DNA of 33,779 nucleotides from a bacterium (GTDB lineage Bacteria > Desulfobacterota > S145-22), in NCBI GenBank assembly GCA_029934085.1, contig JAOZMY010000019.1, positions 1-33,779 of the forward strand, written 5' to 3'. How positions within the stretch are numbered: the first letter of the stretch is position 1; each line of letters begins with the position of its first letter. Below the pieces are notes generated by a model, which had not been told where the DNA came from, made no database searches, and was given only the letters and a program-made list of their open reading frames with translations. Position numbers and translations under genes: made by a program. Below, one piece after another: positions 20 through 29,316 of the stretch.

Positions 20-2110
20 ATGAAAAATGTCGATACGGAATTCATCAGGAACATCGCTATTACCGGACACGGAGGAGACGGAAAGACCTCGATCACGGAA
101 GCCGCCCTCTTTCTTTCAGGCGTAAACACCCGTCTGGGCAAGGTGGATGACGGAAGCTCCCTGATGGATTTTGAGCCGGAAGAAGTCAAACGCGGAGGTT
201 CCATCCTCGCGTCCATCGCCAATTTTCCATGGGACAAACACCTCATTTACTGGATTGACACCCCCGGCTACGCAAACTTCATCGGGGACACCAAGGCCTG
301 CATGCGGGTCGTGGACGGATCCGTCGTCGTGGTATCGGCCAATGACGGGGTCAAGGTTCAGACCAATACCGTGTGGGACTACGCCGACGAATACGAAATC
401 CCAAGAGTGGTCTTTATCAATCGGATGGACTCGGAACGTGCGAATTTCGAAACCACCCTCGAAGATTTGGAAAGTAACTTCAAGGATATACGCATGGTCC
501 CCCTCTACTATCCCATCGGCAAGGAAGCCAATTTCAAGGGTATCATCGATCTCATGGCCCAAAAGGCCTACATCTTCGCGGATGACGCCTCCGGAAAGTT
601 CGAGACACAGGATATCCCCGGAGACCTGGCAGATACCGTGGCCTCCTTCCGGGAGCGCATGATCGAAACCCTCGTGGAAGCGGATGACGAAATAATGGAA
701 AAATATCTCGAGGGAAACGAACTTACAAACGAAGAGCTGCTGGCTTGCCTTAAGAAAGGGACATGCGAACGGCAGTTCGTCCCAGTTGTCTGTGGATCCG
801 CCGCGAAAAACATCGGTGTGGCCCAGCTTATCGATCTGGCGGTCGCCGCCCTCCCCTCTCCCATCGACCGGGGACCCGTCAAGGGTAAAAAACCTGGGAC
901 GGACGAGGAGATTACCCGCGACCCGAGCCCGGACGCGCCATTTTCCGCGTTCGTCTTCAAGACTATTACGGACCCATTCGCGGGACGGCTTACCATCTTC
1001 CGGGTCTACTCCGGCACGGTTCACGCCGACTCGACCCTTTATAACGCCACCAAGGATGTCAAGGAGAGGATCGGACAGATCTTCCGGCTCGTCGGGAAGA
1101 AACAGGAAGGCGTCGGTTCTGCGTCGGTAGGTGAGCTGATCGCCGTGGCCAAACTGAAGGAAACCACGACGGGAGACACCTTCTGCGACGAGAAGGACCC
1201 CATCATCTATGAACCTGCCAAGCTTCCGAACCCCATGATCACTTTCGCACTCAAGCCCAAGTCGCGGGGGGATGAAGACAAGGTTGCTTCTGCCCTTCAG
1301 CGTATGATGGAGGAAGACCTGACCATCCAGCTTGGCAGGGATGAGCAGACCCGTGAGCTCCTTATCACCGGGATGGGGCAGCTCCACATCGAAACCACCC
1401 TGGAAAAACTCAAAAGAAAATTCGGCGTGGAGGTTGATCTAAGCCTTCCGAAGGTTCCCTACAAGGAAACCATCAAGAAGACGGTCAAAGGTGTCATCTA
1501 CCGCCACAAAAAACAGACGGGCGGACATGGCCAGTTCGCCGAGGTCCATTTCGACATCTCTCCCCTCCCCCGCGGAAAGGGATTCGAGTTCGAAAATGCC
1601 CTGACGGGAATGAACGTGCCGAGGGGCTTTGTACCCGCTGTTGAAAAAGGTATTATGGAGGCCATGGCCAGCGGTGTCGTGGCGGGATATCCCGTTGTCG
1701 ATGTCAAGGTCCGGTTTTACGACGGAAAATCCCACGAGGTCGATTCCTCGGAAATGGCCTTCAAGATTGCTGCGTCCATGTGTTTCAAAAAAGGTGTGCA
1801 AGAAGCCAACCCGGTTCTTCTGGAACCAATCATGCAGATGGAAATCATCACACCGGAAGAGAATCTCGGCGACATCATGGGGGATATCAACAGCCGCCGG
1901 GGCAAAGTCCTTGGAATGGACTCCAAAGGAAAATACCAGATTGTCAAGGCACTGGTTCCCATGTCTGAGGTCCTCCAGTACGCCCCGGATCTGAGGTCCA
2001 TGACGGGCGGCCGAGGAAACTTCACGATGGAGTTTTCCCATTACGAAGAGGTTCCGGCCCATCTCAAGGACAAGATAGTGGCCCAGAAAGAGGCAGCGGA
2101 GGAAGAATAA
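20..2110 (+). CDS. Elongation factor G-like protein (EF-G2 / FusA paralogue family)
   Basis: 696 aa with G-domain, domain II and C-terminal EF-G motifs (FEFENALTGMNVPRGFVPAVEKGI, SMTGGRGNFTMEFSHYEEVP). Non-canonical P-loop GHGGDGKTS and switch II DTPGYANFIGD, as in EF-G2-type paralogues. Confidence 0.93.
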   Translation: MKNVDTEFIRNIAITGHGGDGKTSITEAALFLSGVNTRLGKVDDGSSLMDFEPEEVKRGGSILASIANFPWDKHLIYWIDTPGYANFIGDTKACMRVVDGSVVVVSANDGVKVQTNTVWDYADEYEIPRVVFINRMDSERANFETTLEDLESNFKDIRMVPLYYPIGKEANFKGIIDLMAQKAYIFADDASGKFETQDIPGDLADTVASFRERMIETLVEADDEIMEKYLEGNELTNEELLACLKKGTCERQFVPVVCGSAAKNIGVAQLIDLAVAALPSPIDRGPVKGKKPGTDEEITRDPSPDAPFSAFVFKTITDPFAGRLTIFRVYSGTVHADSTLYNATKDVKERIGQIFRLVGKKQEGVGSASVGELIAVAKLKETTTGDTFCDEKDPIIYEPAKLPNPMITFALKPKSRGDEDKVASALQRMMEEDLTIQLGRDEQTRELLITGMGQLHIETTLEKLKRKFGVEVDLSLPKVPYKETIKKTVKGVIYRHKKQTGGHGQFAEVHFDISPLPRGKGFEFENALTGMNVPRGFVPAVEKGIMEAMASGVVAGYPVVDVKVRFYDGKSHEVDSSEMAFKIAASMCFKKGVQEANPVLLEPIMQMEIITPEENLGDIMGDINSRRGKVLGMDSKGKYQIVKALVPMSEVLQYAPDLRSMTGGRGNFTMEFSHYEEVPAHLKDKIVAQKEAAEEE

Positions 2111-2174
2111 CTCCCGGATCCACCGAGGGGACCCCATATACAAAAACTTGAAACCCCGGGCGTAGAGGTGTAAA

Positions 2175-2621
2175 ATGAAAGCGGTGATTCAGAGGGTTTC
2201 ACAGGCATCCGTCAAGGTGAAGGGGCAGACCATCGCCGCTATCGATAACGGCTTACTCGTTCTCGTTGGAATCGGAAAGGGAGATTCAGAAAAGGATGCC
2301 GAATTTTTAGCCAAAAAGATCTCCGGGCTTCGCATGTTTGAGGATAAAAAAGGGCATATCCATTACAGTGTTAGGGAGGTGGACGGAGAAGTCATCGTTG
2401 TTTCTCAATTCACCCTCTACGGAGATTGTCGTAAAGGAAGGCGTCCTTCCTTCACAGGAGCGGAATCTCCGGAAAAGGCCAAAATTCTCTATCAGACCTT
2501 CGTTCAAAAACTGGCCCTGGAAGGAGTTCCCGTTCAAGAAGGCGTTTTCCAGGAGATGATGGAAGTCGCCCTGATCAATGACGGCCCTTTCACGCTTCTG
2601 GTGGAAAGCCCATCTAAGTAA
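2175..2621 (+). CDS. dtd: D-aminoacyl-tRNA deacylase
   Basis: 148 aa; MKAVIQRVSQASVKV start, VVSQFTLYGDCRKGRRPSFTGAESPE motif and C-terminal NDGPFTLLVES typical of Dtd. Confidence 0.96.
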   Translation: MKAVIQRVSQASVKVKGQTIAAIDNGLLVLVGIGKGDSEKDAEFLAKKISGLRMFEDKKGHIHYSVREVDGEVIVVSQFTLYGDCRKGRRPSFTGAESPEKAKILYQTFVQKLALEGVPVQEGVFQEMMEVALINDGPFTLLVESPSK

Positions 2622-2622
2622 G

Positions 2623-2645
2623 CAGGCAGCTAATAAGGCTGCCTG
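2623..2645 (+). terminator. Putative intrinsic terminator/hairpin after dtd
   Basis: CAGGCAGC-taataag-GCTGCCTG perfect 8-bp stem immediately after the dtd stop, followed by a modest T-rich stretch (agattttctt). Confidence 0.5.
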
Positions 2646-2680
2646 AGATTTTCTTCACCCTCTCACGGGAGGTGAGAAAA

Positions 2681-4087
2681 ATGGAAAAAGCCTCAAGAGA
2701 CAGGCAACCTGCTGTGGCCGGGATGTTTTATCCCGCCTACCCCGATGAGCTATCCGAACAAATCGACTCTTTTCTGAGAAACGCGAATCCCCCCACCATT
2801 CACGGCCAGATCTTGGCGCTCGTCAGCCCCCATGCGGGTTATGTCTACTCCGGACAGGTTGCCGCCTACGGATACAAAACCGTGAAGGGAAAATCCTATG
2901 ATCTCGTCATCGTCATCTCCCCAAGTCACCGCGCCTACTTCAAAGGGGCCTCTGTGTATGCCGTTGGAGATTACATCACCCCCCTTGGCGTCGCCAAGGT
3001 CGACCGGGAAGCCTGCACAGCCCTTATGGCCCAGGACCCGACCATCCAGTTTCACCCCCAGGTGCACGAACAGGAACACGCCTTAGAGGTTCAAATCCCC
3101 TTTCTCCAACGCGTTCTCAACGATTTCAAACTCCTCCCCATTGTCATGGGGAATCAAGACTACGCCACATGCGAGCGCCTCAAAGACGCGCTCCTCAAGG
3201 TTATCAAAGGGAAAAACATCCTCATCGTCGCAAGTTCCGATCTCTCTCACTACCACCCTGATCCCGAGGCCCGAACGTTAGACGCCCGGGTTGCAGAGGC
3301 CCTTGAGCGTTTTGATCCCAAGGCTCTACACGAAATCCTAAACTCCGGAAAGGCCGAAGCCTGCGGCGGTGGCCCCATGATTACTGCCATGCTCACGGCG
3401 GCTGCCCTTGGGGCGCACCAATCCAAGGTCTTAGTGTATGCGAATTCTGGGGATATCACCGGAGACCGCCAGGCCGTGGTAGGGTATCTGTCCGCCGTTT
3501 TTTATAAGGAAAATGGCGATTCCTCCCAGAAGAAGGTCGGGATCGACCTTGGCTTAACAGAAGAAGAAAAACAAATCCTGCACACAATCGCGAGAGAGGC
3601 CATCGAAAGCAGGCTTGAGGGGAAACCCCTTCCCCCACTGCCATCCCCCCTCACGCCAACCCTCGAAGAATACCGGGGAGCTTTTGTGACTCTCACCAAA
3701 AATGGGAATCTCAGGGGATGTATCGGGTTGATCCAGCCCGTCAAACCTCTGGCCGCCTCGGTTCAGGAAATGGCCGTGGCCGCGGCCTTCCAGGATCCGA
3801 GGTTCCCGCCGCTGACCAAGGAGGAATGGCCGTCCATAGATATCGAAATATCCGCGCTGACCCCCTTCAAGGAGATCCAGGACCTGTCGGAAATCCAGGT
3901 GGGCACCCATGGTCTTTACATCCAAAAAGGTCCTTATTCGGGGCTACTCCTCCCTCAGGTGGCCACGGAGTATGGTTGGAACCGCGAGGAGTTTCTCCAA
4001 CAGACCTGCATCAAGGCCGGCCTTCATCCCATGGCCTATAAAGATCCCGATGCGAAAATCTATATCTTCTCCGCGGATATCTTTTAA
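2681..4087 (+). CDS. Fused AmmeMemoRadiSam system protein B (MEMO1 family) plus protein A (AMMECR1 domain)
   Basis: N-terminal MEMO motifs (AVAGMFYPAYP, LVSPHAGYVYSGQVAAYGY, SSDLSHYHP) followed in the same frame by AMMECR1 (FVTLTKNGNLRGCIG, FQDPRFPPLTKEEW, GLLLPQVATEYGW). Start chosen at ATG 2681 behind GGGAGG; the ORF track uses GTG at 2672. Confidence 0.93.
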   Translation: MEKASRDRQPAVAGMFYPAYPDELSEQIDSFLRNANPPTIHGQILALVSPHAGYVYSGQVAAYGYKTVKGKSYDLVIVISPSHRAYFKGASVYAVGDYITPLGVAKVDREACTALMAQDPTIQFHPQVHEQEHALEVQIPFLQRVLNDFKLLPIVMGNQDYATCERLKDALLKVIKGKNILIVASSDLSHYHPDPEARTLDARVAEALERFDPKALHEILNSGKAEACGGGPMITAMLTAAALGAHQSKVLVYANSGDITGDRQAVVGYLSAVFYKENGDSSQKKVGIDLGLTEEEKQILHTIAREAIESRLEGKPLPPLPSPLTPTLEEYRGAFVTLTKNGNLRGCIGLIQPVKPLAASVQEMAVAAAFQDPRFPPLTKEEWPSIDIEISALTPFKEIQDLSEIQVGTHGLYIQKGPYSGLLLPQVATEYGWNREEFLQQTCIKAGLHPMAYKDPDAKIYIFSADIF

Positions 4088-25386: not shown

Positions 25387-26670
25387 TTATAATCTTTCAA
25401 TAATCATGGCCATTCCCTGTCCACCCCCGATGCACATGGTTGCCAGTCCGGTTTTCAGGTTTTGTCGCATCATCTCGTAGAGCAACGTCACAACAACCCG
25501 CGTGCCCGTGCACCCGATGGGGTGTCCCAGTGAAATTCCACTGCCATTTACATTGGTATTGTCCAAACTCAGACCAAGCTCCCGAATACAGGCGATCGCC
25601 TGAGAGGCAAAGGCCTCGTTCAACTCTATCAAATCGATATCCGACATCTTCATGCCCGCTATATCTAAAACCTTTTTGACCGCCGGGATGGGCCCCAACC
25701 CCATATAGGCCGGATCGACGCCACCCGAGGCATAAGCCACAATCTTGGCGAGCGGCTTGACACCGATCTCCTTCGCCTTACTTTCCGACATGACGAGCAC
25801 CGCCGCAGCCGCATCGTTAATCCCGGAGGCGTTTCCCGCTGTCACCGTTCCACCTTTTTTGAAAACGGTAGGCAGTTTCGCCATCTTCTCCAGCGATGTA
25901 TCCATAGGGCGTTCATCCGTATCGAAGACCACGGGATCCCCCTTCCTCTGTGGAACCTCCACGGGTACGATCTCCTCGGCGAATTTCCCCTCGGTGATCG
26001 CCTTCCGCGCCCGCTGGTGGCTCATGAGACCAAGCTTATCCTGTTCCTCTCGGGAGATATTGTATTTCTCAGCGATATTCTCCGCAGTGAGACCCATGTG
26101 ATATCCATAAAAAATCTCCCACAAACCATCGTGCACCATGAGATCCAGCATCTCAGCGTTGAACATCCGAGCTCCCCAGCGTCCCTTGGGAAAGGCATAC
26201 GGAGCCATGCTCATATTTTCCATGCCCCCTGCCACAACAACCTGGTTGATCCCGCTTCGGATAGACATATCCGCGATCGCGATGGTCTTCAAACCCGAGG
26301 CGCAGACCTTGTTGACTGTGATGGCGTTGGTCTCCTTCGGCATCCCGGCATAGATGGTGGCCTGTCGGCCGGTGTTCTGGCCCTGACCTCCCTGGAGAAC
26401 GTTCCCCATGATCACTTCGTCCACATTAATGGGCTTCGCCGAGTCGTCCCAGTTTCGGTACTTCTTTTCCAGTTCGCTGTAACCCGCCCCTTTCAGGGCC
26501 TCCGGCCCGTAGGATAAAACCTTTTCTGAAGGCTCCGGGCGCAGACCCACACGTTTCAGAACCTCTCGAATCACCAAGGCCCCCAACTGAACCACGGGGG
26601 TAGTCTTCAGTGACCCGCCGAACGAACCAATCGGGGTCCTTACCGCACTGCAAATAACGACGTTTTCCAT
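25387..26670 (-). CDS. Acetyl-CoA acetyltransferase (thiolase)
   Basis: VNKVCASGLKTIAIADMSI, NVNGSGISLGHPIGCTGTRVVVTLLYEM, MCIGGGQGMAMIIERL. Confidence 0.96.
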   Translation of the reverse strand: MENVVICSAVRTPIGSFGGSLKTTPVVQLGALVIREVLKRVGLRPEPSEKVLSYGPEALKGAGYSELEKKYRNWDDSAKPINVDEVIMGNVLQGGQGQNTGRQATIYAGMPKETNAITVNKVCASGLKTIAIADMSIRSGINQVVVAGGMENMSMAPYAFPKGRWGARMFNAEMLDLMVHDGLWEIFYGYHMGLTAENIAEKYNISREEQDKLGLMSHQRARKAITEGKFAEEIVPVEVPQRKGDPVVFDTDERPMDTSLEKMAKLPTVFKKGGTVTAGNASGINDAAAAVLVMSESKAKEIGVKPLAKIVAYASGGVDPAYMGLGPIPAVKKVLDIAGMKMSDIDLIELNEAFASQAIACIRELGLSLDNTNVNGSGISLGHPIGCTGTRVVVTLLYEMMRQNLKTGLATMCIGGGQGMAMIIERL

Positions 26671-26815: not shown

Positions 26816-27925
26816 TCACTTTTTCCCAACGGGTGGTTTGGATGGTGGAGGAGTCTTGGCTTTAGACCCTTGAGTAGGTGTGTGTTTCACAACCTTTCTC
26901 GCATAGATCGTCAGGGGAATTTCGATCAGCGACTGGACAGTGCTGTTCGTACGAACCAAGAGCTTCCCGCTATACGGATTCACAGGTGGAGTTCCACCAG
27001 GCCAGATAGCGGTCAGGTAATATTTCCTGCCCTCCACCACGGGAATAAGTTTGACCACAAGTCGTTTGATGGTCGAGGTTACCTCTTTAATCTTCAATCC
27101 CTCCTGGTTGGCATAAAGGCTGAATCCCGTTGTTGCCATCCCACCCACGATCGCCGGATCGCTAAACATGGAACTTCTCGTCGGCATCACAGTGATGGGC
27201 CCCTGCACCATGCCCGAAACCCTGAGATCATAGGTGGGGGCCTTTTTCAAGTTCGTGAAGAGCCGGATAAACCCTCGATAGGGTCCAATCCGCATCTTGG
27301 GTCCAAACGTTACCTTGATATTATAGTGCATACCATCCTTGTCCTTCCAGGACTTAATAACCTCGGCTGCCACGCCCTTCGCAAAGCTTTCAACCTTCTC
27401 CACCTTGAAATTAGGATCCACGGGCGACCAAACAGCCAAGGTTCTCGTAATCTCCTGGCCATACGACTTGGACACGGCAAGATACGGGGTCGGGCTACAT
27501 TCGATCAGAGGTTTGACCTGTGCGCTGATTCGTAGGAACCGCTTCGGTGTTTTGGGGTCGTTGGAGACCACCGTGGCACCCTTGACGATGTTGCCCCGGT
27601 ACCCTTTGGTGCGGACCTTCAACGTGACCTTTCCCTCCTTACCTGGAGGGATCAAACGGTCGAAAGAGACCGTAGAGCAGCCTCACCCGGGCTTCACGCT
27701 TTTAATCACCAGATCCTTGGTTCCTTTGTTCTGAATGATGAAGGTATGGACGATTTCCTCACCTTCCAGCACCTTTCCGGCCTCGAAGGTGGGTTGTGCC
27801 ACCACCAATGAGGGACCTTCTTTCGATTTGGTGGTTTTTTCAGCCGCTTTTAGTAGTGGCCCATAGAAAACAAGGAACGCCAGCAAAAAAATGTATAAAA
27901 GACTTTTAGCTCTCACATATCCCAT
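26816..27925 (-). CDS. DUF1573-domain secreted/envelope protein, candidate selenoprotein with in-frame TGA at 27685-27683
   Basis: Joining ORFs 27683..27952(-) and 26816..27655(-) across a single TGA in the same frame gives ...HTFIIQNKGTKDLVIKSVKPG-[TGA]-GCSTVSFDRLIPPGKEGKVTLKVRTKGYRG..., i.e. DUF1573 with its CGC motif as UGC. Start ATG 27925 behind GGAGGAG, encoding a signal peptide. Confidence 0.78.
27632..27651 (-). promoter_or_regulatory. Candidate SECIS-like hairpin 2
   Basis: - strand TCCCTCC-AGGTAA-GGAGGGA, perfect 7-bp stem, loop with G at position 2; the loop begins 39 nt after the TGA. Confidence 0.4.
27656..27673 (-). promoter_or_regulatory. Candidate SECIS-like hairpin 1
   Basis: - strand ACGGTC-TCTTTC-GACCGT, perfect 6-bp stem starting 10 nt after the TGA; the loop lacks the usual G. 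Confidence 0.4.
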
Positions 27926-27948
27926 TCGTGTCTCTCCTCCACGTATTT

Positions 27949-29316
27949 TCATCGCCTAAGTTTGAGAATCTTTTTCAGCGCATCTTTAACTTCATTGACC
28001 TTTATAAGCGCAAAATCCTTGGTCGGGGAAAATTGCGTTTGATACTTCTCCGGGCAGACACACGACGTAAATCCCATACGCATCGCCTCCTGAATCCGGA
28101 TATCTCCCTGCATCACCCCACGCACCTCTCCGGCCAGTCCCACCTCGCCAAAAACCACCATCTCGGCAGGCACCGCCTTTTCGTAAAAACTCGACGCGAT
28201 CGCCGCAACAATGCCCAGATCCACCGCCGTTTCCACGATCCTCAATCCCCCCGCGGCATTTACAAAGATATCCTGCTCTCCCAGGGGCATCCCCATTTTC
28301 TTTTCCAGAACGGCCACGAGCAATGCCAGTCGGTTCGGGTCCAGGCCGATGGCCGTTCGGCGGGGAACGCCGAAGTTTGTGGGGGTTACCAAGGCCTGAA
28401 TCTCCACCAAGAGGGGACGGCTCCCCTCGAGGCAGGGAACAACCACCGATCCCGGTGTCTCCTGGGACCGCTGCCCCATGAAAAGCTCCGACGGGTTAGT
28501 GACCTCCTTGATTCCCTCCCCTGTCATCTCAAACACGGCGATCTCATTGGTGGGGCCATACCGGTTCTTGATACCCCGCAGAACCCGGAAAGGCTGATCC
28601 TTCGGGCTCTCGAAATAGAGGACGGCATCCACCAGGTGCTCCAGAATCTTCGGGCCCGCGATGGCCCCTTCCTTCGTCACGTGTCCGATGAGGAAAATAG
28701 GGATCCCCATGGTCTTGGAAATTCGGGCAAACCGTCCCCCCGTCTCGCGAATCTGACCCACGCTTCCCGGGGCCGAGGGAAGGTCTCCCAGGTGCATCGT
28801 CTGGATGGAATCGATGACAACAATCTCCGGGGCCATCTCTTTGATGGTGTTCTCTATCAGTTCGTACATGGTTTCAAACACCACGTAGAGCTTATCGGAT
28901 ACCGCGTGAAGCCTCTGGGCACGAAGTCGGATCTGATTGGGGGATTCCTCTCCGGATACATACAGGACCCGATGTCCCTGCGAGGCCAAATGATTCAACA
29001 CCTGGAGAAAGAGAGTCGACTTCCCGATCCCCGGCTCTCCACCCACAAGAACCACGGAAGCCGGCATAATCCCCCCACCCAAAACCCGGTCGAACTCCCC
29101 GATTCCCGTCAGGATACGTCTCTCATGCTCTCCCTCGATCCGGGTCAGTGGAACGGGTTCGATCGCCTTTTTACCCTTGAGGGCGTGGGTCGCGGAGAGC
29201 GGTTGGACCACCTCTTCCACAAAGGTATCCCACTGTCCACATTGAGGGCATTTCCCCAACCATTTGGGCACCTGATACCCGCAGGATTGGCAGACATAAC
29301 GGACCTTCGTCTTCAT
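27949..29316 (-). CDS. radA: DNA repair protein RadA
   Basis: Zinc finger YVCQSCGYQVPKWLGKCPQCGQWDTF, Walker A LVGGEPGIGKSTLFLQ, KNRYG motif, Lon-like C-terminal domain. Confidence 0.98.
   Translation of the reverse strand: MKTKVRYVCQSCGYQVPKWLGKCPQCGQWDTFVEEVVQPLSATHALKGKKAIEPVPLTRIEGEHERRILTGIGEFDRVLGGGIMPASVVLVGGEPGIGKSTLFLQVLNHLASQGHRVLYVSGEESPNQIRLRAQRLHAVSDKLYVVFETMYELIENTIKEMAPEIVVIDSIQTMHLGDLPSAPGSVGQIRETGGRFARISKTMGIPIFLIGHVTKEGAIAGPKILEHLVDAVLYFESPKDQPFRVLRGIKNRYGPTNEIAVFEMTGEGIKEVTNPSELFMGQRSQETPGSVVVPCLEGSRPLLVEIQALVTPTNFGVPRRTAIGLDPNRLALLVAVLEKKMGMPLGEQDIFVNAAGGLRIVETAVDLGIVAAIASSFYEKAVPAEMVVFGEVGLAGEVRGVMQGDIRIQEAMRMGFTSCVCPEKYQTQFSPTKDFALIKVNEVKDALKKILKLRR

Follow-up and report, generated by a model that had tools for sequence, protein, structure and literature searches.

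The window, by which we refer to the whole analyzed stretch of 33,779 nucleotides, carries on its minus strand a gene for a predicted selenoprotein of the OS_HP2/DUF1573 type, together with a radA-like gene and a thiolase gene. The features of this locus are the following:

26816..27925, minus strand: OS_HP2/DUF1573 gene, predicted to encode a selenoprotein; ATG-to-stop frame containing a single in-frame TGA; product of 369 aa
27683..27685, minus strand: in-frame TGA, almost certainly the selenocysteine (Sec) codon; residue 81 of the 369-aa protein and first position of U-G-C
27934..27940, minus strand: Shine-Dalgarno sequence GGAGGAG, read from the sequence; precedes the ATG at 27925
27866..27916, minus strand: N-terminal hydrophobic helix (predicted, residues 4-20), presumed signal peptide
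27518..27802, minus strand: DUF1573 domain, i.e., the first Ig-like domain, which holds the UGC motif (PF07610, 3.7e-22; NF041425, 112 bits)
26891..27502, minus strand: two further β-sandwich (Ig-like) domains with approximate boundaries (AlphaFold2 model, mean pLDDT 92)
27949..29316, minus strand: radA-like gene, directly upstream (Pfam; synteny in genomes G001, G002 and G005)
25387..26670, minus strand: thiolase gene, downstream (Pfam; synteny with G001 and G005), with no evident functional link

The minus-strand frame extends from the ATG at 27925 to the stop at 26818-26816, with the TGA at 27685-27683 as its sole interruption. This codon separates two ORFs of the same frame, 27683..27952 and 26816..27655 (both minus); counted from 27952, the frame comprises 379 codons, both TGAs included, and the start ATG at 27925 was selected from the Shine-Dalgarno sequence at 27940-27934 and the N-termini of the orthologues. 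In the joined protein, the PF07610 (DUF1573) match runs across the TGA (3.7e-22), and this DUF1573 domain was the only one found in the host genome. In the window's own family, the gene neighbors are radA and a set comprising thiolase, enoyl-CoA hydratase and ETF genes—a context that tells little about the function of OS_HP2.

A sequence-only reading of the window had put the in-frame TGA in the place of the first Cys in the DUF1573 Cys-Gly-Cys motif, and the frame, the domain match across the TGA and the alignment of homologues all bore this out. C-G-C was invariant in 51 aligned homologues (members picked by a motif that itself includes C-G-C), and the TGA aligned with the conserved Cys, always the first of the pair. 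Moreover, a TGA occupied the same column in 4/4 orthologues covering the site (G001, G002, G003 and G005, with 48-69% identity), all assigned by GTDB to the genus or family of the host (G000); the orthologue match in G004 ends at a contig end, such that the site is not covered. For the part after the TGA, the comparison of G000 with G001 gave a pN of 0.18 and a pS of 0.65, and a pN well below pS indicates that the downstream part evolves as translated sequence under purifying selection. The close homologues hence carry TGA rather than Cys, with no sign of downstream decay—the outcome that the selenoprotein proposal called for.

These observations bear directly on the possibility that the gene is decaying and its TGA either a genuine stop or an error of the assembly. 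The assembly is indeed a draft of 170 contigs, but the same TGA is found in each of four independent orthologues with 48-69% identity, the frames after it are open with a low pN/pS, and 75 TGA-bearing members were found in the phylum; the conserved TGA and the coding constraint refute a pseudogene or sequencing error, for which we see next to no probability. Two separate proteins, the first ending at the TGA and the second re-initiated at the TTG at 27655, appear just as improbable: a TTG-initiated ORF does exist at 26816..27655, yet no Shine-Dalgarno sequence precedes 27655, the break would fall within one β-sandwich domain, and the Cys homologues are uninterrupted. A global code change was likewise ruled out, in agreement with the earlier view of TGA as an ordinary stop in neighboring genes, since TGA terminates both the OS_HP2 gene itself and radA.

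We also examined the Sec machinery of the host, the draft genome of which amounts to 2.4 Mb in 170 contigs and is 94% complete. The genome contains tRNA-Sec (selC, anticodon tca), selA (618 bits) and selD (379 bits), the latter with an in-frame TGA of its own. This selD gene lies at L052 (G000:C117), about 1867-2900 (minus strand), with its TGA in SGSGUASKL and a single-hairpin SECIS 13 nt on. For selB, no match over the cut-off was obtained in the 94% complete host draft; the best one (102 bits) fell in an 884-residue open frame, taken to be IF-2. A selB match over the cut-off was present in 9 of the 10 relatives searched, including G001 from the host's genus and three genomes from its family (G002, G003 and G004), and the missing gene is read as an assembly gap. 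Of the sel genes expected in the host, selA, selC and selD were thus found, and selB is missing from the draft but present in the sister genomes.

The orthologue TGAs, the coding constraint after the TGA and the sel genes jointly support the selenoprotein reading. Judged from these comparisons of sequences, the TGA at 27685-27683 is almost certainly a selenocysteine codon, and Sec insertion itself at codon 81 is very probable. We place the probability that the gene encodes a Sec-inserting OS_HP2 protein at about 0.92, a figure that excludes the roles of the hairpins and of redox chemistry discussed below.

The sequence-only reading had further suggested that a DUF1573 selenoprotein would be novel; the family is, however, already established as predicted selenoproteins (OS_HP2/NF041425). 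OS_HP2 is given together with pfam07610 and UxC in a 2008 article (PLoS Genet, PMC2398784), and DUF1573 with the motif UGC in reviews from 2022 and 2026 (PMC9312934 and PMC13188914, respectively). The window protein matches NCBIfam NF041425, 'OS_HP2 family (seleno)protein', with 112 bits and an E value of 1.4e-32 (curated cut-off, 100 bits), and it has the domain, the UGC motif and Sec at the first Cys in common with this entry, although the match spans only the first of its three Ig-like domains. The OS_HP2 literature passages searched make no mention of the two-hairpin signal described below. The protein is therefore a member added to a known selenoprotein family, in which only the recoding signal may be new.

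Across a survey of 395 genomes of the phylum, presumably Desulfobacterota, the family model matched in 160 and exceeded the cut-off in 44. Motif extraction in the phylum yielded 75 TGA and 24 Cys members, i.e., 99 of 100 extracted frames, with one spurious frame (L114) dropped. At least 11 Sec/Cys changes are needed on the tree, a quick and weakly supported reconstruction. The residue before Sec is Gly in 62/75 members, whereas Gly precedes Cys in only 2/24. Tandem copies of the family were observed in G040 (L020, one Sec and one Cys) and in G388 (L093/L110, two Sec), and the copy at L040 (G051:C274) displays a second TGA and a TAA ~40 codons past the UGC motif and is possibly broken.

Within the decoding scheme that we propose, tRNA-Sec and SelB would read UGA codon 81 as Sec, guided by mRNA structure 3' of the codon. 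Sec members contain two consecutive hairpins after the UGA, the stems of which begin at about +11 (HP1) and about +33 (HP2). In the window, they are located as follows:

27656..27673, minus strand: hairpin HP1, ACGGUC-UCUUUC-GACCGU, 9 nt past the UGA, with a G-less loop (covariation and synonymous-shuffle tests)
27632..27651, minus strand: hairpin HP2, UCCCUCC-AGGUAA-GGAGGGA, with the loop 38 nt from the UGA and containing GG; the probable SelB-binding SECIS

Synonymous shuffling gave a mean z of -2.27 for HP1 in Sec forms versus -0.62 in Cys forms (p 1.5e-7), and of -1.11 versus -0.31 for HP2 (p 5e-4), with p values that treat sequences as independent. HP1 was more stable than the shuffle expectation in 99% of the Sec forms and HP2 in 95%, while z was not lower in Sec forms for control windows placed before and after the hairpins. 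Independent Sec/Cys pairs on supported branches numbered four, too few for significance, and the direction for HP1 nearly always agreed. As the HP1 register shifts between subfamilies, the main length class, with its 59 sequences, could not be treated as a whole in gap-free RNAalifold and was analyzed register by register. In gap-free alignments of two register classes, 0/500 shuffles reached the observed HP1 covariation score, with far lower values for slid controls; in the first class, 6/7 HP1 pairs had changed on both sides in a compensatory manner, and few compensatory changes were found in HP2. The window sequence falls outside the two covariation classes, in a third and smaller one with six sequences, and its own synonymous-shuffle z values were -2.0 (HP1) and -2.5 (HP2). 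HP1 shows covariation, together with selection above that on the encoded protein, chiefly in Sec forms. Searches with Rfam SECIS_1 returned no match in the host and none in 14 control genomes either, and are hence uninformative; an Rfam search of the region with a threshold of E<=10 gave chance-level matches only.

Which of the two hairpins serves SelB was assessed against the bSECIS model as set out in a review (PMC13188914), which specifies a G at loop position 1 or 2, 16-37 nt from the UGA to the apical loop, a loop of 3-9 nt, a stem of 4-16 bp and an energy <= -7.5 kcal/mol; according to the same source, some elements do not fit this model. HP2, with loop AGGUAA and -13.2 kcal/mol, agrees with the model in loop size, stem, G position and energy, and is the only hairpin in the window to satisfy those for loop, stem and energy; its distance of 38 nt lies 1 nt beyond the range. 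The window gene also departs from the standard model in that the qualifying hairpin stands behind a conserved one without a loop G. This layout recurs in the family: a model-type hairpin occurs only at 38-43 nt in 51/75 Sec members, and inside the range in 19/75. GG is present in the HP2 loop of 98-100% of the Sec forms and in the HP1 loop of 0%. The selD genes of the same genomes have one hairpin at a median of 13 nt past the UGA, and a G occupies loop position 1 or 2 in 27/27. With HP1 folded, HP2 begins 13 nt past the UGA in the window—the spacing of the host selD stem—and mostly at 8-16 nt across the main class. The HP2 GG is also dictated by a conserved Pro-Gly of the protein, and an HP2-like hairpin is present in 14/24 Cys forms.

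On this basis, HP1 probably folds out the spacer, bringing HP2 to ~13 nt from the UGA, and the GG apical loop of HP2 would then be bound by SelB; we lean slightly towards this assignment of HP2 as the SelB site with HP1 as spacer. The chances are about even that the recoding signal of OS_HP2 genes constitutes a separate, two-hairpin class of bacterial SECIS, in which the conserved, G-less HP1 would shorten the path and thereby enable the canonical GG-loop HP2 to act for SelB from outside the accepted range. Alternatively, HP1 itself could be the SelB-binding SECIS, with HP2 incidental or merely slowing the ribosome. The usual distance of HP1 from the UGA, and covariation and synonymous-site signals stronger than those of HP2, speak for this arrangement, but GG was found in the HP1 loop of 0/74 Sec members scored, only 14-27% have a G at loop position 1 or 2, and a loop G is required by the bSECIS model as presented in PMC13188914 and present in all selD elements of the same genomes. 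We consider a SelB-binding HP1 possible, with odds clearly below even.

From a structural perspective, the AlphaFold2 model of the protein (mean pLDDT 92) consists of an N-terminal helix and β-sandwich domains. A Foldseek comparison with the PDB returned generic Ig-like domain matches only, including 2qsv from P. gingivalis, a protein of unknown function, and no solved structure related by sequence was found. The Ig-like β-sandwich fold is common to the HYDIN/CFA65/VesB-like (ASH) Ig domains and 2qsv (PF22544; Foldseek), but the low whole-chain TM-scores indicate that the domain fold alone is shared with the window protein. To our knowledge, no redox function is known for any of these domains or for 2qsv.

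In other lineages, neighbor clusters were named by Pfam from one or two members per cluster. At 12 loci (11 with TGA; e.g., L059:7392-8012, plus strand), OS_HP2 is followed on the same strand by a gene for a HAD-like hydrolase, and at nine it is preceded by a polysaccharide deacetylase gene. Furthermore, MauE/DoxX plus rhodanese, or DsbD_TM, is encoded upstream of OS_HP2 at about three or four loci each, as at L064:6445-7400 (minus), L092:2-1312 (plus) and L126:2064-2861 (minus), and one of the DsbD_TM loci has the Cys form. None of these redox-linked neighbors was seen in the window's own family. MauE and DsbD_TM proteins belong to families linked to transmembrane thiol redox, and this link makes a periplasmic selenol/thiol redox role the best guess; the upstream MauE/DoxX plus rhodanese or DsbD_TM genes provide a lead to the electron partners of OS_HP2. 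We thus envisage an exported three-domain Ig-like protein in which Sec-Gly-Cys of the first domain would probably act as an extracytoplasmic selenol/thiol redox pair. Binding of a metal or metalloid at the UGC site, instead of thiol redox chemistry, is rather unlikely. Being compact, the Sec-Gly-Cys pair could act as a chelator of soft metals, and a cation-efflux domain lies beside MauE upstream in one relative; however, the surroundings of the motif contain only one further conserved His, Cys or Met, namely His60 of the 369-aa protein, and the MauE, rhodanese and DsbD_TM neighbors indicate thiol redox. Gene neighbors in other lineages therefore give redox a moderate advantage over metal binding as the role of the UGC site.

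If the two-hairpin signal is true, it would account for part of the bSECIS elements outside the published model, and scanners built on a one-hairpin model would miss genes of this layout. A simple rule would then follow—measuring the UGA distance with intervening hairpins folded—and selenoprotein annotation would improve. The Sec form is common in the phylum, and OS_HP2 is a predicted family for which no functional study was found; the Sec, Cys and neighbor-gene data now render the function of the DUF1573 Cys-Gly-Cys proteins testable.
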